A stretch of DNA of 64,000 bases from Planctomycetota bacterium. Lineage in GTDB: Bacteria; Planctomycetota; Planctomycetia; Gemmatales; Gemmataceae. A model generated the notes under the pieces. It was not told the origin of the DNA. It searched no databases and saw only the letters and a list, made by a program, of their open reading frames with translations. Location of the stretch: assembly GCA_021413735.1 (NCBI GenBank), contig JAIOPV010000198.1:1-64000 (forward strand), given 5' to 3'. A program made the position numbers and the translations under genes. Shown piece after piece: positions 1,584 to 23,113 of this stretch. Each line of letters opens with the position of its first letter. Position 1 is the stretch's first letter.

Positions 1584-1667
1584 AGACGTCCTTTACCCTG
1601 TCTCGTTCTGTGCGACGAAACAGAGGTTTTGGCGGTTCGGAACAGACGAACCTCACCCACGACGAAC

Positions 1668-1697: not shown

Positions 1698-1732
1698 ATA
1701 CACGCCGGGCGTCAAGTGGTAGAGTCCTGTGC

Positions 1733-1945: not shown

Positions 1946-2026
1946 GCGTTCCTGACCTAACGGACCCATTCCTCAGATTTCAATCCGAATAGCTCATCTT
2001 CTTTTCCTAATTCATCAACTTAAGCT

Positions 2027-3390: not shown

Positions 3391-3429
3391 TTTCGTAAAC
3401 CACTTTCCCGCATTAAAGACGGAGTTGAA

Positions 3430-6381: not shown

Positions 6382-7177
6382 CGCTGCAGTCGCGGCCGGT
6401 CAGGGTGGCTCTGAAACCATTCAGGTTAGTCGGCGAGGCGACCTCTTCATCTTCTCTGTGGATCGCGGGAGTGGATTCGTGGAGGTGAAGCGGATGGCGT
6501 TCGCCGATCTGGGCTCACTGACGAATGTTGCCCTCCGAGCATGGTCACACCAGACCCCACTCGACGCGAGCGCTGACAATTTTTACTTCCAACCGGTAGG
6601 TGCCGACCAGTCATCGTCGTGGGGGGACGACTTCTCAAGCCCAAGTTACACGGACACAGGTTGGACCTCCGATAGTTCCGGGACGGGTGGGGAGGCGACC
6701 TCAACCAACGGCAAGGTTTCGTTCACTGGTACTACCTCTGGGATGACCTATGGCTCGATTCTTCACGATTTGTCGGTTAACGGTAACTTCACAACCGGCG
6801 CTACTTTCACCCAAAACGCTAACCCCGGCGAGACATGGCGGGACGGCATCTACCTGCAGTTCCAGGGTGGAATGTTGATCCTTCACGACACGGGCGAGAG
6901 CGGGTGGTATCTGTACTCCTGGCCGACGGGCGGTTCGCCAGTGGTGGTCTGGAACGGCTCGGTGGACACGTCGGGGCAGTTGGGCACACAGACGCTGACG
7001 GTCGAGCGGGTGGGGGATCAATTCAGGTTCTCGGTCGCCCGTGGCGGAATCGAGACCGAGTTGTACAGCCAAGAGTTCACCGGCCTTGGGGGTCTGACCG
7101 GGGTCCGACTGGCGGCGTGGTCCCATGGTTCCGCACTCAACGCCGCGGTCGATGAATACTTCCTGACGGTAACATGA
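6233..7177 (+). pseudogene. 3' part of the same surface protein, out of frame
   Basis: This frame carries the rest of the large protein: two related C-terminal repeats, one with DWRHGIELDFTGGRIVFHD and one with TWRDGIYLQFQGGMLILHD. Removing one T from the TTTT run at 6240-6243 joins the frames into NGSLGTDWRHGIELDF, which aligns well with NANPGETWRDGIYLQF of the second repeat. The intact protein would be about 1248 residues. This is either a genuine inactivating or phase-variation event, or a sequencing error. An internal ATG at 6233 could allow independent translation, but no signal peptide is present. Confidence 0.7.
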
Positions 7178-7199
7178 CGAACCCACAGAACCCCTTACA

Positions 7200-7226
7200 A
7201 AAAACCGGCCACCATAACCGGTTTTT
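7200..7226 (+). terminator. Intrinsic terminator after the surface protein
   Basis: The stem AAAAACCGG / CCGGTTTTT (9 bp) with loop 7209-7217 ends in a T-run, 22 bp after the stop codon. It is a good rho-independent terminator for the plus-strand gene. Because of the A-run it may also work in the opposite direction. Confidence 0.85.
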
Positions 7227-7598
7227 AAGGTTCGTCGCTCGTGGTACAGAGTTAAACGAGTTCGGTTGTGTATGGATCTGGCTCACTTTGTTAGTCAGCA
7301 CCTTGCACCACGCTGACGCCATCATGCCATTCACCACGGCGTCCCGTGGTGAATCACTCACAGCACGTCACACTCCGTCAACCACTCACTTTCCCATACC
7401 CTCTCCTTTGGTTTGGTTTCGGGCCATGGCCGGCCCTTCCAACCACTTTCGGCCACTGAGGCTCAAGATCGCATCGCGGGTTTCTGGAAACATCGGGCAC
7501 ACCCGGCGAACGCCTTTGGACTGCCGGGTGAAGTGCATTGATGGATCGGTTCAAGCGACGGAGGCCATCGCGGCGAGGGCGGTCTGACGGCGGCGTGC

Positions 7599-7880
7599 TC
7601 AGGCATCTGGAAGAAGTTCAGCGAGTTGTTCGTCCTTCGGATTCGCACCTGGTTCGTGCAACTTCGGCAGCACGTCTCGCAGGTACGCGCCCGGGTCTAT
7701 TCCCAGTTAACGGCAACTTCCTAGCACCGTGAAGTGAATCGCTTGCGTTCGCTCCCGATGGCGTGTTCCCCGCGAACTTCCAGTTCTTTCGTCCGAGAGC
7801 AATTACCCGCAACGTCCGCTCGGAGAGGGTGTTGTCCACTGACAGACGACCGTCTTCCGTGTAACGCATGAACGCTTCCT
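7599..7880 (-). pseudogene. IS66-family transposase C-terminal remnant
   Basis: The minus strand reads EAFMRYTEDGRLSVDNTLSE and then RTLRVIALGRKNWKFAG, the conserved C-terminal DDE-domain region of IS66 TnpC. After a frameshift it continues as LGIDPGAYLRDVLPKLHEPG, the usual IS66 terminal segment, to the stop at 7599-7601. A stop codon lies just before EAFMRY. No tnpA or tnpB or intact 5' part is visible nearby, so this is a decayed fragment. The rest of 7227-7949 shows no other gene. Confidence 0.8.
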
Positions 7881-7949
7881 AGCGACTAAACATATATATA
7901 TACGGACATACTTGGACCTCTTTATCTCAGTCGTCGGACCGAGACTCTG

Positions 7950-10900
7950 CTATGGCTGGCTTGTCTGATCGCGGAGTTTGCGGATCTCGGCCCAGAGGTG
8001 ATTCCAGGCGTCACGTTCGTCTTCCGGCAGACTCTCGAAATCGCGAACGGAGTCAAGATCGGGATTTGCGAGCCAGGTTCGCATCACCTTGTGAACCGCC
8101 ACTGTGCTAGCTCCGTTCGCAGCCAATGTCCGTTGGGCAGCCAGTTCGGCGGACAGCCAAGTCAGACCCTCACCGCGCAACGCCCGCCCGTCTAGTTTTG
8201 GCGGCCCGTCATTGGCTTGGTCGCTCGCCAACCGACAGGCATAACAAGCCATATCGTTGCGAAAGAGTTTGATAAAGGAGGCATCCACCTTCAAGCCGTC
8301 GCGAAGGATTTGGAGAGCGGCCAGTCGTTCGCCTCTTTTGGCGAGAAGAGTCGCCGCGCGTTGGTAGGGGTGTTCCCGCGTTGTTCTGAGCCTGATGGCC
8401 TGTCGGTACGCCTCAACCGCTCCACTCCAGTCCTGATTCAGCCAAAGAACATCTCCCATTCCCACGTGCGAAACCAAGCAGTCAGGGTCTCGTTCGATGG
8501 ACGTTTTGAATGCCTGAATCACCGCGTTCAGATGGCGTTTGTCTTTGACGGCATACTCCCCCAGAGCGCACAGTGGCTCGGCGAGTTTGGGGTCGAGTTT
8601 GATGGCTTTGGTGAATTCCACGATCGCTTCATCGAACGCGTTCTCCTGACACAAGATGTTTCCGAGCTTGATGTATGCGCTCGTGAAGTTGGGATCGATT
8701 GCAATCGCGGACTTGACTGCCGACATCGCCCCTTTTCGATCCCCTTGTAACCAGAGCACGGTTCCCAGACCGAAGTGCGGAGCAGCGAATTTCGCGTCCA
8801 GTTCGATGGCCGTTTTGTACTCCCTGATCGCACGATCCAACTCACCCAAATGAGCCAGGGCGTTACCCAGGCCGTTGTGCGGAGCGGCAAATTTTGAGTC
8901 CAGTGCGATCGCAGCCTTGAATTCCCGCAGTGCTGCCGCTCGATCGTTTTGAGCCCACAGCACATTCCCCAGGCCATTGTGAGCCGCAGCGAAATTGGGA
9001 TTAAGATCAACGGCAGCCTTGAACTCCTGCCTCGCTCCCCACAAGTCGCCCTTGGCAGCCAAGGCATTCCCAACGCCGTCGTGTGGCTGTGCGAGCCTTG
9101 GGTTGCGTTCAATCGCGATCCGATACGTGCGAATCGCTTCGTCCAGGTGCCCCTTGGCGGCAAGTGCATGCCCTAACCCGTAGTAATGGGGCGCAAATGT
9201 CGGGTCGCTTTCGGTTGCCGTGCGAAACACTCGGATCGCTTCGTCCAGATGGCCCTGCTTCTTCAAGACACGCCACAATCCGTCATAGGCCGGCGTGGAG
9301 CGTGCATCGAGTTTGATGGCAGCTTGAAACGCAACAACCGCTTCCTCCAGATGCCCCTGGTCGGTTAATGCGCACCCCAGACCGCTTCGCGCGGTGGCAG
9401 AAGATGCATCGAGTTGGATCGCGGTCTTGAACTCACGGATCGATTCATCAAGCGTACCCCTGCGGTGCAAGGCGTATCCAAGACCCGTGTGCGGGAGGGC
9501 GAGTTTCGAATCCAGACTGCTCGCGGCCTTGAATTCATGAATGGCCTCGTCAAGGTCGCCTTTGAGATACAAGGCGTCCCCGAGGCCGCTGAGGGTGAGT
9601 GCGGATTTCTGAATGTTGCCAGCATTGGTGAACTCGCGAATCGCGTCTTGAATGGCTCCCTGGTCAAGCAGTGCGAGTCCCAAATTGTGGTGAGCCGCAA
9701 CGCACGAGCGAGGCAAAGCGACCGCCTGACTCAACCACTTGACCCTCTCACTGGCCCCATCGAGTTGCCCGAACGAATACAGCCCACTCAACTCCATCAG
9801 GATTCCCAAATCTTTGTCGTGATCTCTCTGCGCGGTCCGTAGCACCGCACGCTTGCGCTCGACCGGAAGTTCCTCAATCCGTGCGAAAGCGGTTACGAAT
9901 CGCGGTGGTTGCGTGAACACCGCATCGCTCTGTGCCAGTTTGGCGAGTTCCGTTTTGTTCCCGGCGGCAACGGAGACACGGATTTTGTCTCGGTATTCGT
10001 CCGGGTCTGTCGCTTCCAGGATGGCCTGCAACTCGGGCGACGGCTCGGACATAAGCCAGAGGTCCAGGGCACCCATCAGGCGACTCCTCAGAAGGGAATT
10101 GTTCACCCGTTGTGCCGCGTCCGTTGGCGAGGTTGTCTTGGGCACGATCCCGAACTGCCGAAGTGCTTCTGCCAATTCCGCCGCGAGTCGTTTCTTGCTC
10201 GGAAGGCCGCCATCCCCCGGCATCCAACTGAACTCATCGATCCGTCTTAAATTCTGAAGGAGCGTTAGATTCGACCGGCATCGATCGAGACGATCCTGGA
10301 CCGCCTCGACTCTCACATCGATCAAGTGCGTATCGACTCCGTTGAGAATCGCTGCAGCGTTCTCAGCATCCTCACTTCGCAAAGAGTTTTCGCAGAGTTC
10401 GATCGAATTCGCGAATCGGCGTTCCTTCTCTTTTCTGTCATTTCTGTTGAGTAACACAAACACAACAATCGCCGCACCAGCCGCGAGCACCAACAACCCC
10501 AACCCGCACTTCTTCCACCATTCTTTGGCCCGGGTCTGGGTTGCGGTCTCATCCCGAATTGCCGCCAGGCGTTTCGTTGCGACGGCATCCCGATACTGAT
10601 TCAATGCCTTGACCACGGCACCACCATTCGCGGGACGATCCCCAGGGAGTTTGGCCAGGCAATGCCGGCAGAGGGCGATGAGTTCCGGATCTTTCCCACA
10701 CGCACCCAACCGCTCGAGCGCGTCTCCGATCACCCATCCTTTGGCTTGAGCCAAAATCTCGCTGGTCGTTCCGGAGTAGAGGGGCTTACCGGTCAAAATC
10801 TGGTACAGAATCACACCCAGAGCGAAAACGTCGGCTTGCGGTCCGACACCCAATTCCCCGCAGGCTTGTTCAGGAGGCATGTACGCAGGGGTGCCACGAA

Positions 10901-11762
10901 TTGCCTTTCGCAAAACCGCATCGCCAGCCGCCGAACGCGAATCGAGTTCGGGGATGTTGTGGGTCTTGTCGGCTTTCTCGGTCGCCTTTGAAAGCCCCCA
11001 GTCGAGGATCCAGACTTCGTCCGCCCTGACAAGCACGTTTCCCGGCTTGAGATCGAGATTCACTTTGTTCTGCTGGTGGGCATAGTCCACGGTCTGCGCA
11101 ATTTTGCGGAAGACATCGAGCAGTTCGATGTCGTTCCTGTCTGCTCCCAACTCCAAGTATTCGCACAAACTCCGACCACTGATCGGCTGCATGACAATAA
11201 AGGGTCCGCGGGTTTCGTCACGCCCGATTTGGTACACGGGGGCGATGCCGGCGTGCTGGAGTTGGCTCTGGAGTTGAGCTTCCAATCGGAATTGCTCTAC
11301 AAGTTCCGCGTTGGAGCGGAGGTGCGGGAGCATGAACTTAATCGCCACGGGCCTTCCGAGCGACTTGTGTTGCGCGGAGACAATGACGCCCATCCCACCC
11401 CGTCCGAGTTCCTCCTCGGTTCCGTCCGGTTTGCGGTTAATGACAAAATCGGCCAACGACACATGGCTGGGCCAATCCGCAGGACAGGAGTCGGTGGCAT
11501 CTGGCCCCTGATGACGTGCGGCGTGGCTGTTGAGAAATTCCCGGAGTCTCGAGCGGACGTCCGGGTGGTAGTCCTCGGGCCAGGTCCGCGGGTCCGGAGG
11601 TTCTGGCACTTCGGCTGTCGCCGGTTTCCCCGATCGAACCCATTCCGTCCAGCGGTTAAACAAACGGATGTATGCCATCGTGGCTTCTTCGTAGATTTGG
11701 TCAATCTTGTCGGGATCGAGCGGTCGGCTGCGATCGAGTTCTTTCGACACGTGAAGCTCCAC
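7950..11762 (-). CDS. Membrane Ser/Thr kinase with TPR domain
   Basis: A 1270-residue protein. The kinase domain spans about 105-395: glycine loop LGRGGMGV (119-126), K142, catalytic loop NLDLKPGNVLV with D237, DWG at 254-256, and GTPAYMPPEQA. The usual HRD is NLD and DFG is DWG, so it is a non-RD kinase. One transmembrane helix lies at about 419-438 (LGLLVLAAGAAIVVFVLLN). Residues about 690-1180 hold a long run of TPR units ending in patterns such as LDEAIREFKTAIELD. The kinase is cytoplasmic; the TPR side may sense or bind partners. It follows two sigma-like genes, an arrangement typical of planctomycete sigma/kinase modules. Confidence 0.88.
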   Translation of the reverse strand: MELHVSKELDRSRPLDPDKIDQIYEEATMAYIRLFNRWTEWVRSGKPATAEVPEPPDPRTWPEDYHPDVRSRLREFLNSHAARHQGPDATDSCPADWPSHVSLADFVINRKPDGTEEELGRGGMGVIVSAQHKSLGRPVAIKFMLPHLRSNAELVEQFRLEAQLQSQLQHAGIAPVYQIGRDETRGPFIVMQPISGRSLCEYLELGADRNDIELLDVFRKIAQTVDYAHQQNKVNLDLKPGNVLVRADEVWILDWGLSKATEKADKTHNIPELDSRSAAGDAVLRKAIRGTPAYMPPEQACGELGVGPQADVFALGVILYQILTGKPLYSGTTSEILAQAKGWVIGDALERLGACGKDPELIALCRHCLAKLPGDRPANGGAVVKALNQYRDAVATKRLAAIRDETATQTRAKEWWKKCGLGLLVLAAGAAIVVFVLLNRNDRKEKERRFANSIELCENSLRSEDAENAAAILNGVDTHLIDVRVEAVQDRLDRCRSNLTLLQNLRRIDEFSWMPGDGGLPSKKRLAAELAEALRQFGIVPKTTSPTDAAQRVNNSLLRSRLMGALDLWLMSEPSPELQAILEATDPDEYRDKIRVSVAAGNKTELAKLAQSDAVFTQPPRFVTAFARIEELPVERKRAVLRTAQRDHDKDLGILMELSGLYSFGQLDGASERVKWLSQAVALPRSCVAAHHNLGLALLDQGAIQDAIREFTNAGNIQKSALTLSGLGDALYLKGDLDEAIHEFKAASSLDSKLALPHTGLGYALHRRGTLDESIREFKTAIQLDASSATARSGLGCALTDQGHLEEAVVAFQAAIKLDARSTPAYDGLWRVLKKQGHLDEAIRVFRTATESDPTFAPHYYGLGHALAAKGHLDEAIRTYRIAIERNPRLAQPHDGVGNALAAKGDLWGARQEFKAAVDLNPNFAAAHNGLGNVLWAQNDRAAALREFKAAIALDSKFAAPHNGLGNALAHLGELDRAIREYKTAIELDAKFAAPHFGLGTVLWLQGDRKGAMSAVKSAIAIDPNFTSAYIKLGNILCQENAFDEAIVEFTKAIKLDPKLAEPLCALGEYAVKDKRHLNAVIQAFKTSIERDPDCLVSHVGMGDVLWLNQDWSGAVEAYRQAIRLRTTREHPYQRAATLLAKRGERLAALQILRDGLKVDASFIKLFRNDMACYACRLASDQANDGPPKLDGRALRGEGLTWLSAELAAQRTLAANGASTVAVHKVMRTWLANPDLDSVRDFESLPEDERDAWNHLWAEIRKLRDQTSQP

Positions 11763-11859
11763 GAGAGTGAATAGCTCGGTTCAGGTTGTCATCGGGAAAC
11801 TCTGGTGCGGCCCAGCGAAAAGGATGTCCGGTGACGCCGGACCTGTGGTCGCGGCGGTA

Positions 11860-12978
11860 TCAAACCGTTTGGGCCAGAACCCAATCGGAAGCGTCGGCGA
11901 ATTGTTCTTTCACCGCGTCTGCCGTTTGTTGCGTTAAGGTCGCTACCTGATCGACCGGGAGACCGGCATAGCAGTGGAGGAGTAGGACTTCACCGAGTTT
12001 TGGATAACGGTCTTTCAATTTTCGAGTTGCCCGAGCGAGTTCTGCCGCGGCTTCCGATTCCTGGGACGCAACGGTGCCGAGGAACGTGTCTCTGGCGAGT
12101 TCCGCCAGTGTCGTTTGACCGTGATTCCGACTGCGACTGGCCACCCTCGCGGCTTCTTCCCGAATGTCACGCATCACCTCGGCGACCAACAAGAAGAAAC
12201 GGTGTTGGTGCGCCGCTGGAAGGGGTTCAGGCCCACACAGGCGATCGGTCGCCCACCGGGTGAGTCGAGCCGGATGGAGTCCACCGGCGAGCCCCAGGGC
12301 GTCGGTGATTTCTCGTTTCACGAGGATCCGCAGTGCATCAAGCGCGGATGATCCCGGGTTCTGGAGGAGAACTCGGCCTGGAAAACGCGGACCGAACGCG
12401 ACCAGAACCCCCTCCGGCGTTTCGCGTCCCGGGAGGATCGAAGCCCCGATTGATAGCTCGGGGCCGTTGCTCGAAGATGGACGAACTTCGGCCACGGCCT
12501 CTGAGATTTCTGAGAGATCACCGGGCTCGCTCGGGAAATGAATGCTCGACCCGCGTCCACGCCACCAGGCCAACGCGATTTCGTCCGGTTGCGGAGATTT
12601 GCCAAGTGTTCGCCAATAGGGCAACGGTAATTCGATCACGGCATCTCGCAATTCCGCGAGCCAGACGGGTGTCGAGGCCAACTCGACCAACTGATCGCTC
12701 GGGAGGCGTTCAAGACCGTACTCGAGGATCTGCTTCTTCCGATGAACGTTGAGTTCCAGTTCGTCGCCGGTGGTATCGGGGGAGGTCAGGAATATCTCGA
12801 ACAGGGCGTTGAACGCCGCTTCGTCTGCGATCACAGTTGTCAAACCGATCCGGAGAATGCGGATCTCGTCCTCGGTCAATTTCGCGGCCAGACGCGAGAC
12901 GTGATCGGATGAACCATTCGTTTTGCGAGCCAACCAAAGCAGCGTGACGAGTTCGGGAAATCGTGCCACGGTAGTCAT
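11860..12978 (-). CDS. Hypothetical protein with sigma-region-4-like C-terminus
   Basis: A 372-residue protein starting at ATG 12978, chosen because GGAG lies six bases upstream; an alternative ATG is four codons earlier. The last 55 residues (ELARATRKLKDRYPKLGEVL, then YAGLPVDQVATLTQQTADAV) resemble sigma-70 region 4, with a helix-turn-helix in the same position as planctomycete ECF factors. The long N-terminal part has no recognised domain. It lies between a clearer sigma-like gene and the kinase-TPR gene, suggesting a shared signalling operon. DNA binding is inferred. Confidence 0.55.
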   Translation of the reverse strand: MTTVARFPELVTLLWLARKTNGSSDHVSRLAAKLTEDEIRILRIGLTTVIADEAAFNALFEIFLTSPDTTGDELELNVHRKKQILEYGLERLPSDQLVELASTPVWLAELRDAVIELPLPYWRTLGKSPQPDEIALAWWRGRGSSIHFPSEPGDLSEISEAVAEVRPSSSNGPELSIGASILPGRETPEGVLVAFGPRFPGRVLLQNPGSSALDALRILVKREITDALGLAGGLHPARLTRWATDRLCGPEPLPAAHQHRFFLLVAEVMRDIREEAARVASRSRNHGQTTLAELARDTFLGTVASQESEAAAELARATRKLKDRYPKLGEVLLLHCYAGLPVDQVATLTQQTADAVKEQFADASDWVLAQTV

Positions 12979-13065
12979 TGGGATCTCCATTGAGGCTATC
13001 GGGTTTGTGAGGCTGGCTTCGTGTAATCGTGTCGGGTGACCAACGCCACTAAATGACGTTGGCGT

Positions 13066-13920
13066 TCAACGAGCCGGATTGTCAGGAATTTGGCCCGATC
13101 GATCGTGTTGAATTTTCTGCCTGAGCGCGGCGAGCCAGCGGTACATCGTCGCCAGCGACACTTCGAACTGCCGAGCGAGTTCGGACACGTCGGATACCGA
13201 CTGTCGGGCTTCGAGAAGCTGACGATCGCTTTCCGAGAGTTGAGCCCATTGTTCTTTGACGATCACGTTTTCGACGACCGGTTCGGATCCCCCGGCGACT
13301 TTGGGGTCATAGAGCAGCGGGACTCCCAGCACGTCGCGGAACTTCTTCTCCGCGGTCACAGACCGCTTCAGGGCATTGAAACTTGAATTGACCATCCACC
13401 AACCTTGTTCCGGGTTCGCCTCCCGAGCCATCATGAGCAGGACGCGGAACGGATCGTCGAGCAAGCATTGTGTTGCGTCGCCGATCGCCTCATCAATCGG
13501 ATCATTGCCAGGTCTGTACCCGTACTTTTGAGCGTTTACACGAACTCGTTCTCGAATGATTTGCAAGTTGTTCTCAAAGGTGACTTCGATTCGGATCGCC
13601 ACACCTGCTCGACCCAGGACCGTGTGTAACGCAGGCAAGTACGCCTTCACCCAATCGTGCAACTCTCCATCCGTGGGATTCTGTTCGGCTTGCACAACTT
13701 GCAAGCGGGACACGGTTCTGGGTGCGTGGTCGCGGCATCGTGTCTTGGAACACTGGAGTAAGTCCGGGAATTTGTGCAGAATCGTTGGCCACGCCTCGGT
13801 GGCGAGCTTCGACTCGTCGTAGCGATTGAACAGGGTCTCCAGGACAGCACCCGCTCCCGAGTGTCGAATGTTCTGCTCGAACATCGCGACACGGCTGACT
13901 GCGGCCTCGTTGGTTGTCAT
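13066..13920 (-). CDS. Sigma-70-like regulator
   Basis: A 284-residue protein. Residues about 225-275 (WAQLSESDRQLLEARQSVSD, then VSELARQFEVSLATMYRWLA) form a region-4-like helix-turn-helix. The middle part (residues about 140-190) has the helical spacing expected of sigma region 2 in divergent planctomycete factors, but conserved region 2 residues are hard to assign. It is the first clear regulatory gene of the minus-strand block and may direct transcription of the downstream kinase gene. It could instead be a HTH transcription factor. Confidence 0.55.
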   Translation of the reverse strand: MTTNEAAVSRVAMFEQNIRHSGAGAVLETLFNRYDESKLATEAWPTILHKFPDLLQCSKTRCRDHAPRTVSRLQVVQAEQNPTDGELHDWVKAYLPALHTVLGRAGVAIRIEVTFENNLQIIRERVRVNAQKYGYRPGNDPIDEAIGDATQCLLDDPFRVLLMMAREANPEQGWWMVNSSFNALKRSVTAEKKFRDVLGVPLLYDPKVAGGSEPVVENVIVKEQWAQLSESDRQLLEARQSVSDVSELARQFEVSLATMYRWLAALRQKIQHDRSGQIPDNPAR

Positions 13921-14137
13921 TTCTCACCATCCTTTTCCAGGTCGGGCTGCGGTGGAAACAATCGGGGCACTGATGATCGTGCCGCAGGGGCTATCCTTCC
14001 TAGCCAAATCCCAGGGTTGGTTTCTCAAGGTTTCGGAATTTTTCATGCCGGATGTGCGGGGTGCCGATGCTGAACCGCGTTAGCGGAATGAACACAGATT
14101 GTGTGCGATATCTTCGCGGATTTCGACCGAACTCGTC

Positions 14138-14659
14138 TCAGTTCGAGGACGGGGGAGGCAAACCCGTGTCGGGGTGATACCGCTTCTTGACGTAGTCCAA
14201 CCAACTCCGTGGTCGGTCGCTTGTGCCTGGCTCCGTTTGGTGACGCATCGGGTTCGTTGAAGCCTGGATAAGAGCGTTTGCCTGCTCAGCGGGTAAGATC
14301 GCTCGCACCGAATCCAGACTGATGAGGAGATTGGAGACGGCTCGATCCCAAGCGGTGGTAAAAGGGGAGGCCAGGTGCAAATCGTTTCCTTCCCCCCGAA
14401 TGGCTGCTCGAACTACTTCTCGCACGACCGGTTCGACCGTTCCGTCGGCTGACGCCAACCCATTGTCGGTCATCTCTTGCTGAAACTCGGCGGAGAATCG
14501 ACCATCAGTCAGACATGCTTTCCTCAGCTGGACCACCAACTCTCGGTCGCGTGGTGGGCCATCCAGGAGACGCTCCAAGAGGAAGATTGTCCCCGCAACG
14601 ATGACGAGGGGTGCCCGAACACCCGTTGATAATTGGACTTCAATTTGCTCGATATTCAT
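14138..14659 (-). CDS. Hypothetical protein with hydrophobic N-terminus
   Basis: A 173-residue protein of unknown family. A hydrophobic stretch (APLVIVAGTIFLLERLL) near the N-terminus could be a membrane helix or an amphipathic core. The rest is helical and charged. It starts just after a very AT-rich region and is the most upstream gene of the sigma/kinase block, about 220 bp from the sigma-like gene. No function can be assigned. Confidence 0.55.
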   Translation of the reverse strand: MNIEQIEVQLSTGVRAPLVIVAGTIFLLERLLDGPPRDRELVVQLRKACLTDGRFSAEFQQEMTDNGLASADGTVEPVVREVVRAAIRGEGNDLHLASPFTTAWDRAVSNLLISLDSVRAILPAEQANALIQASTNPMRHQTEPGTSDRPRSWLDYVKKRYHPDTGLPPPSSN

Positions 14660-15226: not shown

Positions 15227-15526
15227 ATGTCGAGGAGCGCAACCCGCGCACGACATCGTCGTGCGCAGATCGAGTCCCTTCTGGACCGAGTGCAGAATGC
15301 GAAGTCGACCATGGAACGGAGCACGGCAACAGGAGAGTTGGTCCGTCTGTTCCAGCAGATTGCTCGTTCCGGCACGCGGCTTTGGTCTGTGGAACGGCTG
15401 GTCGTTCCTCCAAGGCGTGGCACCCGCGGAGAAGACGCCGATGAGACGAGGGCTCTGATCGCTCACATCGTCGCCCCGCACCTCGCGGGCCAGGGTACCC
15501 GTCGCCGTTCGCCGGGTTGCGATTGA
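15227..15526 (+). CDS. Small basic hypothetical protein at start of element operon
   Basis: A 99-residue protein beginning MSRSATRARHRRAQIESLLD, rich in Arg and Thr, with an amphipathic helical N-terminal half. GGGAG lies seven bases before ATG 15227. It is the first credible gene of the plus-strand run leading to the ParB-like and coupling-protein genes. Its basic character would allow nucleic-acid binding, but no domain is recognised. Confidence 0.5.
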   Translation: MSRSATRARHRRAQIESLLDRVQNAKSTMERSTATGELVRLFQQIARSGTRLWSVERLVVPPRRGTRGEDADETRALIAHIVAPHLAGQGTRRRSPGCD

Positions 15527-15638
15527 CGCGGAAGCCGCACGCCAACTTTTGCAACAACTCCCTGCTCCCAAACGATCCCGCCCGAGACCACCAGTTTTTG
15601 CTGCGAGGTGGAGGGCTCCTCTTCGTACTGAGGTTGCC

Positions 15639-15851
15639 ATGAGCGAGAACAACCAACCCGACAAACGCCAACTGGATGACTGGGTGAGTGAAGGCGGGCG
15701 CGACCGTGCGGAACCCGAGCCACTCCCCGAGTTGCCCGACATCGAAGCCGTCGTTCTCGACGAACTCGTGATTGACCCACTGCCCGAACTCCTCGAACCA
15801 CTGCCGGAATTACTTCCCGACCTGGAGGATCCGCCGTGCTCTACCAGCTAA
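15639..15851 (+). CDS. Small acidic proline/leucine-repeat protein
   Basis: A 70-residue very acidic protein with a repetitive tail of P-L-P-E-L units (DPLPELLEPLPELLPDLEDP). The start at 15639 (MSENNQPDKRQ) follows an AGG. Its 3' end overlaps the start of the ParB-like gene by 16 bp, indicating translational coupling. Such charged repeats suggest a flexible partner-binding protein; function unknown. Confidence 0.5.
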   Translation: MSENNQPDKRQLDDWVSEGGRDRAEPEPLPELPDIEAVVLDELVIDPLPELLEPLPELLPDLEDPPCSTS

Positions 15852-16639
15852 TCACAGTCGTGCTCGCTGCGTGCGACCTGACTCGCAACCCACGTACGAA
15901 TCGCGATTCCAATTACTGCCGCTCGCTGGGTGAAAACATTCAGGCCAATGGCCAGAAGGTTCCCATCATCGGCTGGTATCACGGCAAGCAGTTCCTGGTT
16001 GTTGAGGGCGGTTGTCGCGTGACCGGAATGAAGATGGTCGGCCTGACCGAAGTGCAAGCCCTCGATATGGGTAAGGAACCCGAGGCCGGTGACCTCCTCC
16101 TCGCACAGGCCTCCATCGACGAGTTTCGCGAGCAACTCAACCCGATTGACCGGGCGAAACTGAATCAGGCTGCCATGAAGGCCAAGAACCTGACGGCCAA
16201 GCAGTACGCCGCACGACTCGGGGTCAGTGAATCCAAGATCAGCCGCTCTCTGACCCTTCTGACATTGCCGCCCGAGGCCCAAGAACTCATCGCCGCCGGC
16301 AAACTGGACCCGACCAAGGGGGTCGAGATCGCCATGTTCGCCGGTTCCGAGCGACAGCGAGAGCTGGCGCTGGTGGCGGACCAACTCACCCGCACTCAAC
16401 TGGTCGCGATGCGGAAGCAAAAGCCCGCAACCGCCGATGTGAAGCTTGAACGCGTGAAAATCGCGTTGCCGGGGCAAGTGCTGGTCAACATCAGCGGCGG
16501 GTCCATGTCCATGATGTCCGTCGTCGAAACACTCGCGGAGACCTTGAAGGAAGCCCGCAAGGCGTCGGACGCCTGCTACGACGTCAAGACCTGGGTGCGG
16601 ATGATGGCGGATAAGGCCAAGAAAGGAGGGACCGCGTAA
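15836..16639 (+). CDS. ParB/Spo0J-family protein
   Basis: A 267-residue protein. Residues about 10-85 match the ParB N-terminal domain (SLGENIQANGQKVPIIGWY, EGGCRVTGMKMVGL at the nucleotide-binding box), though the usual GERRxRA is replaced by EGGCRVTG. Residues about 110-165 form the KorB/Spo0J helix-turn-helix (LTAKQYAARLGVSESKISRS). The start GTG 15836 has GGAGG seven bases upstream. No ParA partner is adjacent. It lies upstream of the coupling-protein gene and may handle element DNA maintenance or regulation. Confidence 0.85.
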   Translation: MLYQLITVVLAACDLTRNPRTNRDSNYCRSLGENIQANGQKVPIIGWYHGKQFLVVEGGCRVTGMKMVGLTEVQALDMGKEPEAGDLLLAQASIDEFREQLNPIDRAKLNQAAMKAKNLTAKQYAARLGVSESKISRSLTLLTLPPEAQELIAAGKLDPTKGVEIAMFAGSERQRELALVADQLTRTQLVAMRKQKPATADVKLERVKIALPGQVLVNISGGSMSMMSVVETLAETLKEARKASDACYDVKTWVRMMADKAKKGGTA

Positions 16640-16763
16640 TGGTTGTCGACCAAAAGGCTGCGTGCTTCGGAGCGGGAATGACACAACATGTCGAACTCGG
16701 CGGGGGTCGTTGCTACCCGACACGGATCACCATGGCGGGACTCCTCCAGGAATTGAGGGGATC

Positions 16764-18635
16764 ATGTTCAAACTGTGTCGTTACACACTGATCGTGTCCT
16801 TGGTGATCGCCCTTTACATCGCGATTTTGCTCGTGGCGGCCGTCCCTTACCTGTGGCTGCTCGCTGCCGCGATCCTTGTTGGAGTCGTTTGCAAGAAAGG
16901 CCACCACCGGTACACGACCCACGGGTCTTCGCGCTGGGCCGATGGAGATGACTTACTTCGAGCGGGGATGCTCGACGCGGACAGGGGCCTGATTCTCGGG
17001 ACCGTCGAACGGAAAACCAGCACCCCCGAAGGCGTCACGGCCCTCATCAACGCGAAACTCACGGCACGACAGGCTTGTCAGGCATTCATCCTGTCGTGCC
17101 GACGGCGACAACCGAGGCGACTGGTCAGGCTCCCCAATGCCGTCCACACAGCAATATTTGCACCATCTGGCGCCGGCAAGAACGTTTCGATCGTCGAGCC
17201 GTTCCTGTTGTCGACCCGCGAGAACTGCGTCGTCATCGACATCAAGGGCGAGAACGCCAAACTGACGGCGGGATACAGGGCGCGGACATTCGGACACAAG
17301 ATTGTGATGGTGGATCCGTGCAAGATCGTGACGGCCTTTCCCGATGTCTTCAACGTGTTGGATGCGATCGACCCAGACTCTCCCGAATCGTTCGATCAAA
17401 TTCGCGCGGTTGCAGAAGCAATCGTGATCAAAGAGCCCAATGCTCGGGACCCACACTGGTCTCAGAAGGCGGAGATCTTTGTTGCCGGCGTGATCGCAGC
17501 CGTTTTACATATTTGCCCACCCGACCGTCGCAGTCTTCAGGAGGTCGCCTCGATTCTCGCAGACAAGGCACTTTTGGGGGGTGCGATCCAGGCCTTGCGG
17601 CGGTCCACGGCTCATGATGGCCTGTTGGCACGGTTGGGAAGTGAGATGTCCATCTCATCAGACAAGGAGTTGGATGGCATCCTCTCGACAGCGAATCGGT
17701 CCCTCGCGTTCCTGAGCACTCCGGCCGTGGTCGAGAGTACCAAGGGCACGAGCAGTTTCAACCCATCGGAACTGTACGCTTCGCGTGGGATCACGATCTA
17801 TTTGATCCTTCCCGCGCAATATCTGAAAAGTCACGCGGGTTTGATGAGGTTGTGGGTGACCACCCTGATGCGGAGTGTGGTCAGCCGAGGCGTCGGTAAC
17901 CCACGGCCCGTGAACGTAATTTTGGACGAGTGTGCGGCACTGGGGCACCTGGAAGCCATTGACGACATGCTCACGATCGGGCGTGGGTTCGGCCTGAAAA
18001 TCACGGCAATCTTTCAGTCGATGGCGCAGCTGAAGAAGGTGTTTCCCGAAGGTCAGGACGGAGTCCTGCTGAGCAACACGACCCAGGTGTTCTTTGCCGT
18101 CAACGATCATCAGACCGCGGAGTATGTGAGCAATCGCCTTGGTGACGAAACCATCCTCGTTCGGAATTGGGGAGCCAATTCCGGAACTTCACGGCAGTCG
18201 TCGAAGGATGGAAGTAACACCAGTTACTCGCAGGGAAGCAACGAGGGATTTCAGCCCTGTGGCCGCCGATTGCTGCAACCCAGCGAGGTCGCCCAACTCG
18301 ATCCGCGAATCGCGATCACGTTTACACCCGGATGTAGGCCCATTGCAACCTGGTTATCTCGCTATTACGAGGGCGATTTCCGGCCCGCTCATGGCATCGG
18401 GCTTCTGCGAATCGTCGTGGAGTCGGTGTGCTTGTTTGTCGCGGTCGCCCTGCTTGCCGTGATGGTCACGGCAGGGGTTGCCAACCACACCTTTGAGGGA
18501 GGAACACGTCATGTCAAACCCACGCCAGGAACTCTCGGATCTGCTCCAACAGGGCAGTCAACCGGACCGGCCGACGGGCATCCAGTCCATCGCGCCCGGC
18601 CTGTCGCTGAGCAAGTTCTTCAACGACGTCGTTGA
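16764..18635 (+). CDS. VirD4/TraG-type coupling ATPase
   Basis: A 623-residue protein from ATG 16764, preceded by GAGGGG; an upstream frame extension lacks protein character. Two N-terminal membrane helices (residues about 5-45) precede the ATPase: Walker A APSGAGKN at about 133-140 and Walker B VNVILDECAALG. The TraG-like C-terminal region contains TTQVFFAVNDHQTAEYVS. A further hydrophobic segment near the C-terminus (VCLFVAVALLAVMVTAGVA) is unusual for the family. Coupling proteins feed relaxase-DNA complexes to a type IV channel, yet neither partner is seen nearby. Confidence 0.88.
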   Translation: MFKLCRYTLIVSLVIALYIAILLVAAVPYLWLLAAAILVGVVCKKGHHRYTTHGSSRWADGDDLLRAGMLDADRGLILGTVERKTSTPEGVTALINAKLTARQACQAFILSCRRRQPRRLVRLPNAVHTAIFAPSGAGKNVSIVEPFLLSTRENCVVIDIKGENAKLTAGYRARTFGHKIVMVDPCKIVTAFPDVFNVLDAIDPDSPESFDQIRAVAEAIVIKEPNARDPHWSQKAEIFVAGVIAAVLHICPPDRRSLQEVASILADKALLGGAIQALRRSTAHDGLLARLGSEMSISSDKELDGILSTANRSLAFLSTPAVVESTKGTSSFNPSELYASRGITIYLILPAQYLKSHAGLMRLWVTTLMRSVVSRGVGNPRPVNVILDECAALGHLEAIDDMLTIGRGFGLKITAIFQSMAQLKKVFPEGQDGVLLSNTTQVFFAVNDHQTAEYVSNRLGDETILVRNWGANSGTSRQSSKDGSNTSYSQGSNEGFQPCGRRLLQPSEVAQLDPRIAITFTPGCRPIATWLSRYYEGDFRPAHGIGLLRIVVESVCLFVAVALLAVMVTAGVANHTFEGGTRHVKPTPGTLGSAPTGQSTGPADGHPVHRARPVAEQVLQRRR

Positions 18636-18825
18636 GAAGGGCGAACAGATGTGGACACAAGGGCGGTCCGAACTCGCGCAGGCGTTGTTCACGGACGGCA
18701 CCGCCTATGTTCCTTACGGTCCTGGGCAAAATCCCGGCGACAAGGACCACGATCATCCCCTTCACGGACCGAGCAAGTCGGCGGACCAACCCGAGATCGA
18801 ACGTGACCTGGGCCGGGAGATGTGA
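18511..18825 (+). CDS. Small hypothetical element protein
   Basis: A 104-residue hydrophilic protein beginning MSNPRQELSDLLQQGSQPDR. A strong GGGAGG lies eight bases before ATG 18511. It overlaps the 3' end of the coupling-protein gene by 125 bp in another frame. The strong ribosome site and its place in the plus-strand run support it as real. Function unknown. Confidence 0.6.
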   Translation: MSNPRQELSDLLQQGSQPDRPTGIQSIAPGLSLSKFFNDVVEKGEQMWTQGRSELAQALFTDGTAYVPYGPGQNPGDKDHDHPLHGPSKSADQPEIERDLGREM

Positions 18826-19030
18826 TTGTCGAACCTGTTCATCCCGACAACGTGAGGCGTTGCCGGGGTGACGAACGCTCAACAACCCCGTCATAACCTT
18901 CAGGAGTCCCCGATGATTTTCGCAACGATGGCTCTGGCCGATGGGTTCCTCGTGTTCATGTTCGGCGTGTGTTTGTGTGATGAGCCGGCAATGACCGACA
19001 CTGTGAACGGAAGTCAAGTTCTGCGCCGAC

Positions 19031-19055
19031 ACGGATGCGAAAAGCCCGCATCCGT
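19031..19055 (+). promoter_or_regulatory. Hairpin before a strong ribosome site
   Basis: ACGGATGCG and CGCATCCGT form a 9-bp stem with a 7-nt loop, about 23 nt before the AAAGGAGG of the next gene. An upstream in-frame start at 18913 with GGAG would encode a short hydrophobic leader (MIFATMALADGFLVF) reading through the hairpin, so it might modulate translation or be incidental. Confidence 0.35.
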
Positions 19056-19089
19056 CGGCCCAAACATAATGTTCAAAGGAGGTTCAACG

Positions 19090-19569
19090 ATGGGTTACAT
19101 TCGCAACTTGCTGACGGGAGTCGCCAACGGTGCTACCCGTGGAGTGTGGCCGGACGACGGCATTCGCAAGATCCAGAAGTTGTGCGCCCGGCAGGGGCGA
19201 GTCGTCGAAAAATTGGACGAGACCGGTCTCGTCTTGAGGTTCAATCATCCCCTGTTCGGCAGTCGTCCTCTGCTCATCACGGTGGCCGATCACGGCGGGA
19301 TGGCTGTCTTCACGGCCTCCAGCAACTCGCGGTTTCCAGCCAACACGATGCCGCCGACGCTGGCGTACTCCTTGTTGCTCCGCAACAAGCAGGCCGGGTT
19401 CTCGTCCTGGGGCGCGATTGCGAACAGTGACGGCACGGTCACGTTCGCGGTGTCGTACACCGCCTTGCTCGGCGGCCTGGAACCCTCTCACTTCCAGGTT
19501 CTCTGCGAAACGATGTGCCAGGAAGTCTTCGAGTTCGATAGCCAACTCCTGAAAGCCGACCTGAACTGA
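19090..19569 (+). CDS. YbjN/CesT-like small protein
   Basis: A 159-residue protein starting at ATG 19090 behind a near-perfect AAAGGAGG. The alternating strands and helices (VVEKLDETGLVLRFNHPLFG, then LEPSHFQVLCETMCQEV) resemble the YbjN / type III secretion chaperone fold. An in-frame extension to 18913 would add a hydrophobic leader. Within the element it may be a chaperone or sensor; this is inference. Confidence 0.6.
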   Translation: MGYIRNLLTGVANGATRGVWPDDGIRKIQKLCARQGRVVEKLDETGLVLRFNHPLFGSRPLLITVADHGGMAVFTASSNSRFPANTMPPTLAYSLLLRNKQAGFSSWGAIANSDGTVTFAVSYTALLGGLEPSHFQVLCETMCQEVFEFDSQLLKADLN

Positions 19570-19986
19570 CACTCACTCAGGGCGACATCGACGTTGATGC
19601 CCGCCATCCACTTTCCAAGCGGATGCCAGTTCCGCGGATGATGCTAGATGCTGCACTCGACAGTTCTTCGAAGCTCTCGATTGGCTTGACGACGGGTTCG
19701 CACAGACAAATTCAACCGTATCAAGGGGATCGCCATGATCGGAGTGAGTCCAGGGACGTTCGCGCCCCGCGCACCACCATTGACCGCCATGAGGCGATTC
19801 GTTCTTCGCATGTTTCACCTCCGAAGTCGGCGTTTGGAAACGTTGCGAACTCGCATCACGCGGCAGTGGATCCTTGGTGATGCCGACGGATCCTCTGCAA
19901 GCCTTTGGAGTGGCACTCACTCCAACCCCGTTCGGGAGTACCGCATGTGTGGCACTCCGATTCCCTTCTTTTGTTGGAGTCAGAAA

Positions 19987-20202
19987 ATGTTCCCGATTAT
20001 CCCGGTTCTGGCCCTGGTCGCGTTGTTCGGTGGTGGTGCCACGCTGTATTGGTATGACGCCCTTTCCCGCGATGAGAAAGCGCGGGCCAACCGGATGGTT
20101 GGCGACATGGCCTGGCAACTCTTCGGGAAGACGGTCGAGGAGTTGACCGAGGCCGAGGCACGGCACATCAACAATCGGATCAAGCAACACTTCGTCAGTT
20201 GA
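19987..20202 (+). CDS. Small single-pass membrane protein
   Basis: A 71-residue protein from ATG 19987 (TTGGAG upstream). The N-terminal helix FPIIPVLALVALFGGGATLY is a clear membrane segment, followed by a charged amphipathic tail (SRDEKARANRMVGDMAWQLF). No family is recognised. It belongs to the run of small proteins after the coupling ATPase. The preceding 19570-19986 interval shows no convincing gene. Confidence 0.5.
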   Translation: MFPIIPVLALVALFGGGATLYWYDALSRDEKARANRMVGDMAWQLFGKTVEELTEAEARHINNRIKQHFVS

Positions 20203-20275
20203 TCGAGACCGTGAAACCGTTCATGCCAATCCTGGGCTGGGGCATTGCCCCAGCTTTTTCCCTTGGATAATGCCC

Positions 20276-20551
20276 ATGAAAGTACACTGGGTTCCAACTC
20301 TGGCCGAGGACATCTCGGCGGCCAGCGGCGCGTACCTCTGGTCCGTGCTCCCCGACATCATGAACGCCGGCCCTCGAGAAGGGCACCGAAGGCTCACGGA
20401 ACACTTCCTGACGGCAATCGACGTTTACATCGAGACAGTGGAAACCCAGCAACTCCCTGAACCCTCAAGTCAAGAACCGAAGGCCGTTCCTGGTACTTCG
20501 TTGGGAATTGGGAAAGCTCACAAACCTCAATCAACAGGAGGACCCACCTGA
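20276..20551 (+). CDS. Small hypothetical protein
   Basis: A 91-residue protein beginning MKVHWVPTLAEDISAASGAY, helical, with a proline-rich tail. ATG 20270 is an alternative start two codons earlier. Its stop overlaps the next start by one base (TGATG), so the two genes are translationally coupled. Function unknown. Confidence 0.55.
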   Translation: MKVHWVPTLAEDISAASGAYLWSVLPDIMNAGPREGHRRLTEHFLTAIDVYIETVETQQLPEPSSQEPKAVPGTSLGIGKAHKPQSTGGPT

Positions 20552-21060
20552 TGACACCAATCATTGTACGCTGCATCACGTGTCGGCACCGTATTGGTTG
20601 TCCCCTTCGCACTCGTGGCGCGATAGTGAGATGCCCATTTTGCAGGTGTCATGTCTGTGTGCCGATCAGCAACTCGGATGCAATTGACGCGGCAGAGCCA
20701 GCGATTTCCCTCAATCCTGTTGCCTGGCAGGTCCAGTGCCGGACAGCGATCACCGTTGCGTCGGACCTGCTTCGAGCGACGGGTTGCCAGGTGACAGGTT
20801 GGGCGGTGGTGGAACTGATCCGCCAGATCCCGCGTCCGCCGCAAGGGCTCAGAGGGCTGTCTTCGCAGAGCCTGCTGTTTCGCGGTCTCCAGGCAGTCGC
20901 GAGGAATGAGGTCTTGGCAAAGTCTGGGAAACGCGAAGCCATCCTTCGTTTCGTACGGACCACGATCGAGTTGCCCAGCAGCCACCGCGGCCTCCTCGAA
21001 GCCTCCGTCACGGGATCGCTTCTTGGTTTTGGCTTGGCAGGTCGTTCGCTGGACTCTTGA
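20551..21060 (+). CDS. Zinc-ribbon hypothetical protein
   Basis: A 169-residue protein with two N-terminal Cys pairs, CITC and CPFC (RCITCRHRIGCPLRTRGAIV, then RCPFCRCHVCVP), a zinc-ribbon type often seen in planctomycete proteins. The remaining part is helical (VVELIRQIPRPPQGLRGL). AGGAGG lies upstream and the start overlaps the preceding stop. Possibly a nucleic-acid or protein-binding factor of the element; no specific role can be assigned. Confidence 0.6.
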   Translation: MTPIIVRCITCRHRIGCPLRTRGAIVRCPFCRCHVCVPISNSDAIDAAEPAISLNPVAWQVQCRTAITVASDLLRATGCQVTGWAVVELIRQIPRPPQGLRGLSSQSLLFRGLQAVARNEVLAKSGKREAILRFVRTTIELPSSHRGLLEASVTGSLLGFGLAGRSLDS

Positions 21061-21219
21061 GCAACGAACACGTCGAAGTGGTGTGGTTCCGACAGGGAAT
21101 CTGGAACGGTCCCATCCCGTTCAATTCGAGCAGCGAATGTTCTTTTCCCTGTTTGGCTGTGGTGATGCGGCCTGGATGGGCGGACCACAAGCAATTCGTA
21201 ACCCCAAAGAGGAGCCGAT

Positions 21220-21495
21220 ATGACGGACGTATTATTGAGTCTTGTGGCGGTGATTCTGCTGGCAATCCTGCTGACCAACGTGTTTCGTGATGGGATTTTC
21301 GCTCGAAACGAGACGGACTCGCCCACAAGACGAAGCGATCTCACCATATTTTCTGATTACGGCACAGGTTACCAGTATCTCGGCGTGCCACTCTCAGGTC
21401 TAACCCCGCGATTGGATAAGGATGGGAAACCGATGCGCGTTGAACCAGAGAAGAAGCAAGAAATTGAGAGTCACCAGCAAGGGACGGCAAACTGA
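21220..21495 (+). CDS. Small membrane-anchored protein
   Basis: A 91-residue protein with an N-terminal membrane helix (VLLSLVAVILLAILLTNVF) and a hydrophilic tail containing FSDYGTGYQYLG. GAGGAG stands just upstream of ATG 21220. It is the last small gene before the excisionase-like gene. No family recognised. Confidence 0.55.
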   Translation: MTDVLLSLVAVILLAILLTNVFRDGIFARNETDSPTRRSDLTIFSDYGTGYQYLGVPLSGLTPRLDKDGKPMRVEPEKKQEIESHQQGTAN

Positions 21496-21640
21496 GCATC
21501 CACAAACCCAAAGCTCGGGCGGAGAACTTTCATGTCCTGAGCTTTGATTCCCTCGATCTTGCCACGTCACTTGTCCGTGAGCAGAAGGACGCACACGTGC
21601 GTTCGGCTGAGTAACACTCGATATTTCCCCAGGGTGCCCC

Positions 21641-21865
21641 ATGATGGACTTGCTCACTGTGAAGGAAGCGGCCCCGCAACTTCGCCTGTCTTCAGCCAGC
21701 GTCTACGCACTTTGCGCGGCCAAGAAACTCCGACACCAACGTGTTGGTGTCGGAAGGGGGAAGATCCTCATACCGCCCGATGCCATCATCGAATACCTTT
21801 CCAAGGGCACGGTGAAGTCATCCGAACCTCACCCCGCAGCCTTCTTGAGCGCGGCACGCAGATAA
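21641..21865 (+). CDS. Excisionase-like HTH (MerR/Xis) protein
   Basis: A 74-residue protein with the HTH_17 pattern of excisionases: LLTVKEAAPQLRLSSASVYA, followed by a GRGKILIPPDAIIEYL wing. Such proteins bind attachment-site DNA and favour excision. It converges on the integrase gene and overlaps its 3' end by 37 bp, the layout expected of an Int/Xis module. Confidence 0.82.
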   Translation: MMDLLTVKEAAPQLRLSSASVYALCAAKKLRHQRVGVGRGKILIPPDAIIEYLSKGTVKSSEPHPAAFLSAARR

Positions 21866-22881
21866 TCGGGAGACTGAGAAAGATGTTGATAGGTGCGGGC
21901 AATCATTGATGTGTCACGATGCCCCATCAGGATCGCACACGTCAAGGCATCCACGCCCGCCTTGAGCATCCTGTCAAGCCACGAATGACGAAAGTGATAG
22001 AGGCAGTATTTCCGGCTCTTCACCTTTGCCTTCAGCATCCGCTTGTGCATAGCCGCAAAAGCACACAACGAAGCGTCTGCCGTCCATGGTCGACCCTCGG
22101 AATTTTTGAGCAGGTGATCGTCGGGTTCGGATCCTGCCTTCGGCTTGAGGAGAGCGAGGGCTGTGTCGGTCAGGTAGATCACGCGGGGGCGGTCCTTGTC
22201 CTTGCTCTCTTCGGGAGGGAAGACGAGCCGGGTGTTGGCGACGTCGAGATGGCGAACCCTGGCTGCCATCAATTCCTGTGTGCGTGCCCCGGTTTCCCAT
22301 GCCACCGTGATGATTGATTTGAACTCATCGTTTCGGACGAACGCAAGCAATTCCGCGTACTGATCCGGTGAGATGACGACCTCACGCTTTCCGGCTCTTG
22401 GCTTCTCTTGGTGCAATACCGTTGACTCGGGGATCAAGCCCTTGCGGTGCCCCCAACGGTAAAGCCGTTGAACAGCCCGCCACAGATTCCGTGCGGTGCC
22501 GGAAGCCCAATCTGGGTGAGCGGCGATCCACTGGTCAACGTGAAATGGCTTGATGGCCTGGGCAGAGAATTCCCGGCCGAGGTGCGCGATGAGCGGCTTG
22601 AGTTTGTCGGTGTACCAACGCCGAGTATAGTCGGACTTGCCCTTGAAGCCACTGGCCACGAACTGGTCGAGCAAGCTCCCCAGTGAAACAGGAATTGACT
22701 CGTCGGGAACGACGAAGCGGTCTGCCTTCTTCTTGGCGAGTTTCATCTCTTCGTAGATGTCGTTCGCCGCATCCTTCGTGGTGGTGTCATTGGGTCCTGC
22801 CAGAAGGCGGACGTAATGGCCATCGAACTGGACGTACCAAGCCTTGTGAGACTTCTTGTAGAAGACTTCGCGACGGGTCAT
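21829..22881 (-). CDS. Tyrosine recombinase (integrase)
   Basis: A 350-residue phage-type integrase. Start ATG 22881 (MTRREVFYKKSHKAWYVQ) is chosen because a GAGG lies nine bases upstream and because the longer form would run through a terminator hairpin. An arm-binding/SAM-like N-terminal domain precedes the catalytic domain, with Arg in GARTQELMAA, HxxR in YHFRHSW, His in LMGHRD and the nucleophile Tyr in ARTYQHLS. It presumably integrates the element at the adjacent tRNA-Arg-like site. Confidence 0.92.
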   Translation of the reverse strand: MTRREVFYKKSHKAWYVQFDGHYVRLLAGPNDTTTKDAANDIYEEMKLAKKKADRFVVPDESIPVSLGSLLDQFVASGFKGKSDYTRRWYTDKLKPLIAHLGREFSAQAIKPFHVDQWIAAHPDWASGTARNLWRAVQRLYRWGHRKGLIPESTVLHQEKPRAGKREVVISPDQYAELLAFVRNDEFKSIITVAWETGARTQELMAARVRHLDVANTRLVFPPEESKDKDRPRVIYLTDTALALLKPKAGSEPDDHLLKNSEGRPWTADASLCAFAAMHKRMLKAKVKSRKYCLYHFRHSWLDRMLKAGVDALTCAILMGHRDTSMIARTYQHLSQSPDYLRAALKKAAG

Positions 22882-22946: not shown

Positions 22947-22986
22947 AGCCTTCGGAGTGTTGCTGCACTCCGAAGGCTGTTTTTTT
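22947..22986 (+). terminator. Intrinsic terminator at the element edge
   Basis: A 13-bp stem (AGCCTTCGGAGTG / CACTCCGAAGGCT, 22947-22959 and 22966-22978) with a 6-nt loop is followed by a seven-T run. It acts on plus-strand transcripts, antisense to the integrase leader. It would stop read-through from the element toward the chromosome. Confidence 0.85.
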
Positions 22987-23049: not shown

Positions 23050-23113
23050 CGTTCGAAGCACTTTGCTGGGAGGCTCCGGAGGCCGACGCTCTATCCAGTT
23101 GAGCTACGGGCAC
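23050..23113 (-). other. Degenerate tRNA-Arg(CCG): probable attachment site
   Basis: Read on the minus strand from 23113, the sequence gives the 5' half of tRNA-Arg: GTGCCCG acceptor strand, a D-arm GCTC...GAGC, and anticodon loop CTCCGGA. From the 3' anticodon stem onward it diverges. A T-loop TTCGAAC remains with a four-of-five paired stem, but no acceptor 3' strand complements GTGCCCG. It is therefore not a working tRNA. The break right after GGAGCC suggests crossover near the anticodon stem-loop. Confidence 0.6.

Follow-up and report, generated by a model that had tools for sequence, protein, structure and literature searches.

A ParB and coupling-protein cassette beside a split tRNA-Arg gene in a Gemmata-like planctomycete and its MobF-linked relatives

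Genes of the cassette

In the 64,000 nucleotides analysed here as one window (positions 1 to 64,000 of contig JAIOPV010000198.1, from a planctomycete of the Gemmataceae), a cassette at 15227-22881 joins a ParB-like protein, a type IV coupling protein (T4CP) of the VirD4/TraG type, a row of small proteins, an excisionase-like protein (Xis) and an integrase (Int). The original prediction had listed these genes and, according to our analysis, they are real, with the integrase lying on the minus strand; it had also taken 15227-22881 as the extent of the element, which is in fact much larger, with the right end at about 23072 and the left end outside the window.

The ParB/Spo0J-type DNA-binding protein (15836-16639, plus strand; cluster c1), found upstream of the T4CP gene in nearly all cassettes of this kind, matches HTH_ParB at 5.8e-12 and TIGR00180 at 62.0 bits against a cut-off of 58.45. 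The T4CP (16764-18635, plus strand) contains the T4SS-DNA_transf domain (PF02534, 203 bits, cut-off 20.1) and the TraG-D_C domain (PF12696, 84 bits); its GxGK and Walker-B DE motifs are invariant across 18 relatives, and its hydrophobic N-terminus (1-45) forms a transmembrane (TM) hairpin. Both domains, the Walker A and B motifs and the N-terminal TM segment place it among the coupling proteins, and hydropathy points to an extra TM helix at its C-terminus. Directly behind it we find a conserved small gene that the original prediction had overlooked (18511-18825, plus strand; cluster c2), which starts inside the T4CP gene, overlaps its 3' end and has a GGAGG ribosome site (TTGAGGGAGG). Its product, here called GREM, carries a conserved C-terminal ...GREM tail in many relatives (alignment of 25 sequences) and adjoins the T4CP in nearly all cassettes; structure prediction gave a pLDDT of 53 and no confident fold.

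Each of the other five small genes, all on the plus strand, recurs as a homologue in cassettes of further genomes, so that with GREM the conserved small genes number six. The protein at 19090-19569 (cluster c9, homologues in 5 other cassettes) has, by a prediction of good confidence, the fold of YbjN and of type III secretion chaperones: its AlphaFold model (pLDDT 82) retrieved with Foldseek YbjN (6vu7) and AmyR (5fr7) at the top, at E of about 2e-5 to 8e-5, followed by SycT and CesT. It is followed by a protein with one N-terminal TM helix judged by hydropathy (19987-20202; c21, homologues in L051 and L057), one with homologues in 6 other cassettes (20270-20551; c7), one with a Cys-rich N-terminus and a ribosome site (20551-21060; c22, homologue in cassette L045) and a small membrane protein with a DUF6440 domain (21220-21495; c35, PF20037 at 1.6e-6), which has an N-terminal hydrophobic helix, a ribosome site and homologues in L053 and in the cassette on contig C137 of the same genome (G000). 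The HTH_17 excisionase-like protein (21641-21865, plus strand; c8, PF12728 at 8.3e-10) occupies the same position beside the integrase gene in other cassettes, and the tyrosine integrase (22881-21829, minus strand; c3) matches PF00589 at 3e-15. None of the genes for T4CP, ParB, GREM, Xis and Int is broken, and most have ribosome sites. ParA was not recognised in the window cassette, and for the open reading frames 15227-15526 and 15549/15639-15851 convincing support was not found.

Recurrence in planctomycetes

Matches to the ATPase were found in 35 of 95 Gemmataceae genomes searched, several of which hold five to seven each, and many of the matches represent a conserved one-copy paralogue of about 31% identity. 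In the genome of the window this second VirD4-like ATPase lies at G000:C37:35374-36351 (L007); it is present once in most members of the genus and in some other genomes of the family, and looks like a conserved chromosomal gene.

The gene-order comparison around T4CP and ParB homologues that the original prediction had proposed as its check came out in its favour: the cassette recurs in about 20 other Gemmataceae loci and in further loci of other planctomycetes, often with several copies in one genome, as in Zavarzinella formosa. When the genes of about 20 loci were clustered, a constant core order emerged: parB, with or without a small gene behind it, T4CP, GREM, variable small genes, an Xis-like gene and a recombinase of the tyrosine or the large serine type, depending on the locus; the order is also kept in Zavarzinella formosa, Gemmata sp. 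IIL30, Schlesneria, Fuerstiella and others, which include named genomes and metagenome-assembled ones. The integrases often lie beside a tRNA gene (tRNA-Leu, -Ser, -Pro or -Asn). Some copies are broken, as the T4CP of the C137 cassette is frameshifted and MobF relaxase fragments adjoin two cassettes of genome G026. A shared ParB-site motif upstream of parB was not found beyond close relatives, and at the ends of compact elements no exact direct repeats of 13-14 bp were seen in the sequence compared.

A phage or satellite origin was considered and rejected, the cassette proteins tested having no structural-gene matches worth keeping. Four IMG/VR contigs classed as viral (L137-L140) carry the parB-T4CP cassette; they look like the same integrated elements and are probably misclassified.

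Linkage to a MobF relaxase

Upstream in many cassettes stands a cluster (c14) that represents the MobF relaxase-helicase (TrwC at 5e-73, and the NCBIfam MobF model over its cut-off). Its member at L044:1017-3710, for instance, has both a TrwC relaxase and a helicase part, with PF08751 at 246.6 bits, AAA_30, and NF041492 at 204.7 bits against a cut-off of 100. When the coordinates of 30 T4CP genes were set against those of 65 MobF loci, 23 of the 30 T4CP genes in 12 genomes had a MobF gene within 60 kb, where about 1.1 would be expected by chance; in all 23 cases MobF is upstream, at 3-52 kb, and in 20 it shares the strand of the T4CP gene. Among 393 planctomycete genomes sampled evenly across the phylum, to which all phylum figures below refer, a strict T4CP is present in 12, and MobF is present in every one of these 12, compared with 46 of the 393 overall (p about 2e-12).

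By this synteny and genome co-occurrence the family is a MobF-T4CP element. The synteny also led us to reject a T4CP-only system as a family trait, and the earlier idea of a coupling protein without relaxase, in a different DNA-moving role, is not supported for the family, most of whose T4CP genes have MobF upstream. As a separate observation, a stretch of about 80-180 bp that immediately precedes MobF is 74-87% identical between elements (L044, L055, L075, L076 and L084) and forms a candidate origin of transfer (oriT).

In the window itself the original prediction had recognised no relaxase, VirB/TrbE-type ATPase or replication gene, and this stands: family profiles and the Pfam scans made gave no relaxase, VirB4 or replication gene in 1-64000, the profiles leaving no trace of MobF there. 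Elsewhere in the same genome there are three intact MobF genes on other contigs (C174, C137 and C273) and a broken one (C229); no PF03432 relaxase was detected in this genome, which excludes that family only. The element of Gemmata sp. IIL30 (L049/L197) shows the order parB, c20, c33, c32, kinase, and then c15 and MobF; in the window, IS66 remnants and a low-GC gene occupy the corresponding stretch below 7950.

The junction at tRNA-Arg(CCG)

To the right of the integrase gene, past a 13-bp perfect inverted repeat with a following T run that resembles a terminator (22947-22978), lies the 5' half of a tRNA-Arg(CCG) gene (23072-23113, minus strand), cut in the anticodon stem-loop, which marks the integrase-side junction of element and chromosome. 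It has exactly the same sequence as the corresponding half of the intact tRNA-Arg(CCG) gene at G000:C187:6218-6292, the window contig being C96 of this genome. Among 22 genomes searched the tRNA-Arg(CCG) motif is present in 20, and 18 of them have exactly one copy; only G000 and G006, a genome of a different genus, have two, and in both of them one copy is intact and the other is a half beside a related integrase. The two halves break at the same base and both continue with TCCCAGC, and between the xis-int region of the window and the integrase next to the G006 half there is 71.7% identity over 1288 bp. In G006 about 100 kb of a single contig separate the half from the intact gene, and both point the same way.

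In the simplest model the element comes with a tRNA promoter and 5' half of its own, located at its other end. If the pairing of the tRNA copies is right, the window element would run from G000:C187:6251 via unlinked contigs to position 23072 of the window, that is, over at least about 63 kb. The ends of contig C96 share nothing with neighbour contigs in the stretches compared, and among the tRNA flanks of relatives there was no convincing match to EutB or to the left flank on C187, nor was an empty site with the same neighbours found.

Two observations belong to these sites. The island of about 100 kb between the half and the intact tRNA-Arg(CCG) of G006 (G006:C5:860258-960594; L192, L193) has an integrase of the same type and a MobF gene that is split, with no matching T4CP. 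On C187, the intact tRNA-Arg is flanked on its element side by a metal-efflux cluster with a P-type ATPase, two RND pumps and a cation diffusion facilitator (L068 17565-20000, L194, L195), which is likely cargo of the window element.

The export channel

A type IV secretion system (T4SS) was looked for by its ATPase, VirB4. The P-loop model PF19044 gave nothing over cut-off in 12 cassette-carrying genomes, and both PF19044 and PF03135 were negative in the genome of the window. PF03135 matched in 1 of the 95 Gemmataceae genomes (G028), where a T4CP match lies on the same contig, so the model does work for the family. Across the phylum sample PF03135 matched 2 of 393 genomes, neither with MobF or a strict T4CP, although this model misses some VirB4 types and plasmids may be absent from the assemblies.

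The extra C-terminal hydrophobic helix of the T4CP is present in 17 of 18 family members, and the 18th (L057) has one slightly earlier, at 489-516. It is also found in two homologues from Isosphaeraceae plasmids and is not found in two proteobacterial homologues.

Beside the T4CP, in several cassettes (L042 10887-12715, L040, L048) and on the plasmid pSINAC03 of Singulisphaera acidiphila (L069 6712-8855), stands a pair of membrane-type proteins, c10 and c27, with no Pfam match above cut-off, which are candidate channel parts. The same plasmid is typed as conjugative MPF_T by MOB-suite, yet no VirB4 is among the 31 annotated features listed for it.

Discussion

We suggest that the first 23 kb of the window are probably the integrase end of a mobilizable element inserted in the chromosome of a Gemmata-like planctomycete, an element which has its own coupling protein, is MobF-based as a family, and must use a channel that is borrowed or has escaped recognition. 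The course of transfer that we infer would begin with a harmless integration, in which the promoter and 5' half from the other end rebuild the tRNA-Arg gene. Int and Xis would later excise the element as a circle, and MobF, acting in cis or in trans, would nick it at an unseen oriT; the membrane-anchored T4CP would then receive the relaxase-bound DNA and pump it out. The DNA would pass through a channel that must come from outside or be unrecognised, because no VirB4 was found in the genome, and the element would re-integrate at a tRNA-Arg gene. ParB would probably keep the excised circle in the cell, or else travel with the DNA; the T4SS of pED208 is reported to move ParB proteins (PMC8406263). 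GREM may be an adaptor or a substrate of the T4CP, a guess made from gene order.

Several points weigh against this reading. No relaxase lies in the 15 kb upstream of the window T4CP, where the contig ends and the element continues, and no oriT was recognised; the window and the regions upstream of MobF share nothing beyond a 16-bp match. Seven of the 30 T4CP genes lack a MobF at a distance of up to 60 kb, and several of the seven are on short contigs. The link between C187 as the left end and C96 as the right end comes from the tRNA halves and not from the assembly, and the element is known here from sequence, with excision, circle or transfer not observed. A relaxase beyond the window in the same kind of element, which the original prediction had named as a result that would refute it, is found in the relatives; the 15 kb upstream in this copy have none. 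The relaxase of the window copy may be encoded in a part of the element that lies on another, unlinked contig, or may have been lost behind the IS66 and low-GC insertion; if lost, one of the three intact MobF proteins of the genome could act in trans, provided it recognises an oriT on the window element. With these three genes, and the 15 kb free of a relaxase, mobilisation in trans as originally proposed may still apply to this copy.

The same 15 kb, and the IS66 fragments and low-GC insertion at the place of the IIL30 MobF, would also suit a decayed remnant, immobile after the loss of its relaxase to these insertions, in which T4CP and ParB are not yet degraded. This explanation, which overlaps with ours as it assumes the same kind of element, only dead, has in our view somewhat less than an even chance: the visibly broken copies in G000 and G026 speak for it, while the five main genes of the window are intact, mostly with ribosome sites and with conserved catalytic residues, and the contig stops before the element does.

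The rarity of VirB4 raises the question of whether a channel independent of it exists, in which the T4CP with its extra C-terminal helix, GREM and small membrane proteins (c10/c27, c12, c31, c45, c48) would make a minimal or novel mating channel. The phylum counts (MobF 46, strict T4CP 12, VirB4 2, the last in different genomes), the C-terminal helix as a trait of the planctomycete T4CP clade and the presence of c10/c27 beside the T4CP on pSINAC03 speak for it, but an outer-membrane component and a second motor were not recognised, the small proteins differ between cassettes, GREM lacks a confident fold, and incoming conjugative plasmids could provide the channel and yet escape genome collections. 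We regard such a channel as unlikely, and hold the wider claim, that MobF-T4CP elements throughout the phylum conjugate without a VirB4-type system by this new DNA export route, to be just as doubtful. It is also conceivable that no DNA moves between cells at all, and that ParB and the ATPase serve within the cell to segregate or keep the element, or that the ATPase exports a protein, for instance GREM itself or a client of the protein with the YbjN/chaperone fold. That ParB constantly accompanies the ATPase and GREM, that c9 has a chaperone-like fold and that no transfer channel was found would agree with this, but the strong synteny and co-occurrence with a MobF relaxase-helicase point to DNA processing for transfer, and ParA is missing from the recognised genes of the window cassette; we find this explanation unlikely as well.

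Among described systems, our mobilizable-element reading brings the cassette closest to integrative mobilizable elements (IMEs), with which it shares an integration and excision module (int, xis) with a specific tRNA target, a relaxase in the family and, as the negative VirB4 models in its genome indicate, no T4SS of its own; by the same VirB4 result it is no integrative conjugative element (ICE) with a VirB4-bearing T4SS. The IMEs described include two from streptococci that encode a VirD4 coupling protein of their own, as well as ones that encode ParB, and a review of IMEs reports none with a MobF relaxase and VirD4-bearing ones only with MobC (PMC5704250). Unlike these, the planctomycete family joins MobF, T4CP and ParB, the window copy shows no relaxase, and the tRNA fragment on the integrase side comes from the 5' half of the gene, with the cut in the anticodon loop, and not from its 3' end. 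The plasmids pSINAC03 and PALBO2 (Paludisphaera borealis) resemble the family in ParB and in a T4CP of 33-35% identity with the C-terminal TM helix, and pSINAC03 also in MobF and homologues of c10/c27; they differ in being plasmids with ParA and in that no GREM homologue was recognised behind the T4CP, and an annotated MobF is present only on pSINAC03. The mobilizable plasmid p32 of Sphingomonas sp. AAP5 likewise unites a relaxase and a T4CP on one replicon, but this is a plasmid, its relaxase is of the MOBQ/TraA type and its T4CP has no C-terminal TM helix. Actinomycete ICEs (AICEs) such as pSAM2 are also integrated elements moved without a T4SS; these use an FtsK-type double-stranded DNA pump and no relaxase (PMC3158045), whereas the ATPase here is of the VirD4/TraG type (T4SS-DNA_transf family) and not an FtsK/SpoIIIE-type TraB, and its relatives carry MobF.

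In the open-access papers searched for planctomycete relaxases or conjugation we found no description of this MobF-T4CP family. A large survey of ICEs does not mention planctomycetes, and reports for actinobacteria the same imbalance of many relaxases and few T4SS (PMC3158045). DNA movement between planctomycete cells has been little studied, and these data show a phylum rich in elements with a relaxase and a coupling pump, with the secretion channel nearly absent from it (MobF in 46 and VirB4 in 2 of the 393 genomes). Either most planctomycete elements rely on rare helpers, or a channel exists that is unrecognised, and with a defined gene set this question is now testable.

Neighbouring genes

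Upstream of the cassette, on the minus strand at 7950-14659, is an accessory block with a Ser/Thr kinase-TPR protein (7950-11750), an ECF-sigma-like protein (11860-12978), an HTH protein (13066-13920) and a protein at 14138-14659; the same four families, in the same order and divergent from parB, are found in IIL30. The left part, 1-7949, reaches to the contig end and has IS66 remnants (7602-7878, minus strand) and an HTH gene (1733-1945, plus strand). Its low-GC gene (3430-7177, plus strand) encodes M23 peptidase and Ig-like domains and is apparently split by a frameshift near 6116-6381, and at 266-1068 (minus strand) a GNAT acetyltransferase and a TacA1-like antitoxin form a pair that is likely a toxin-antitoxin module.

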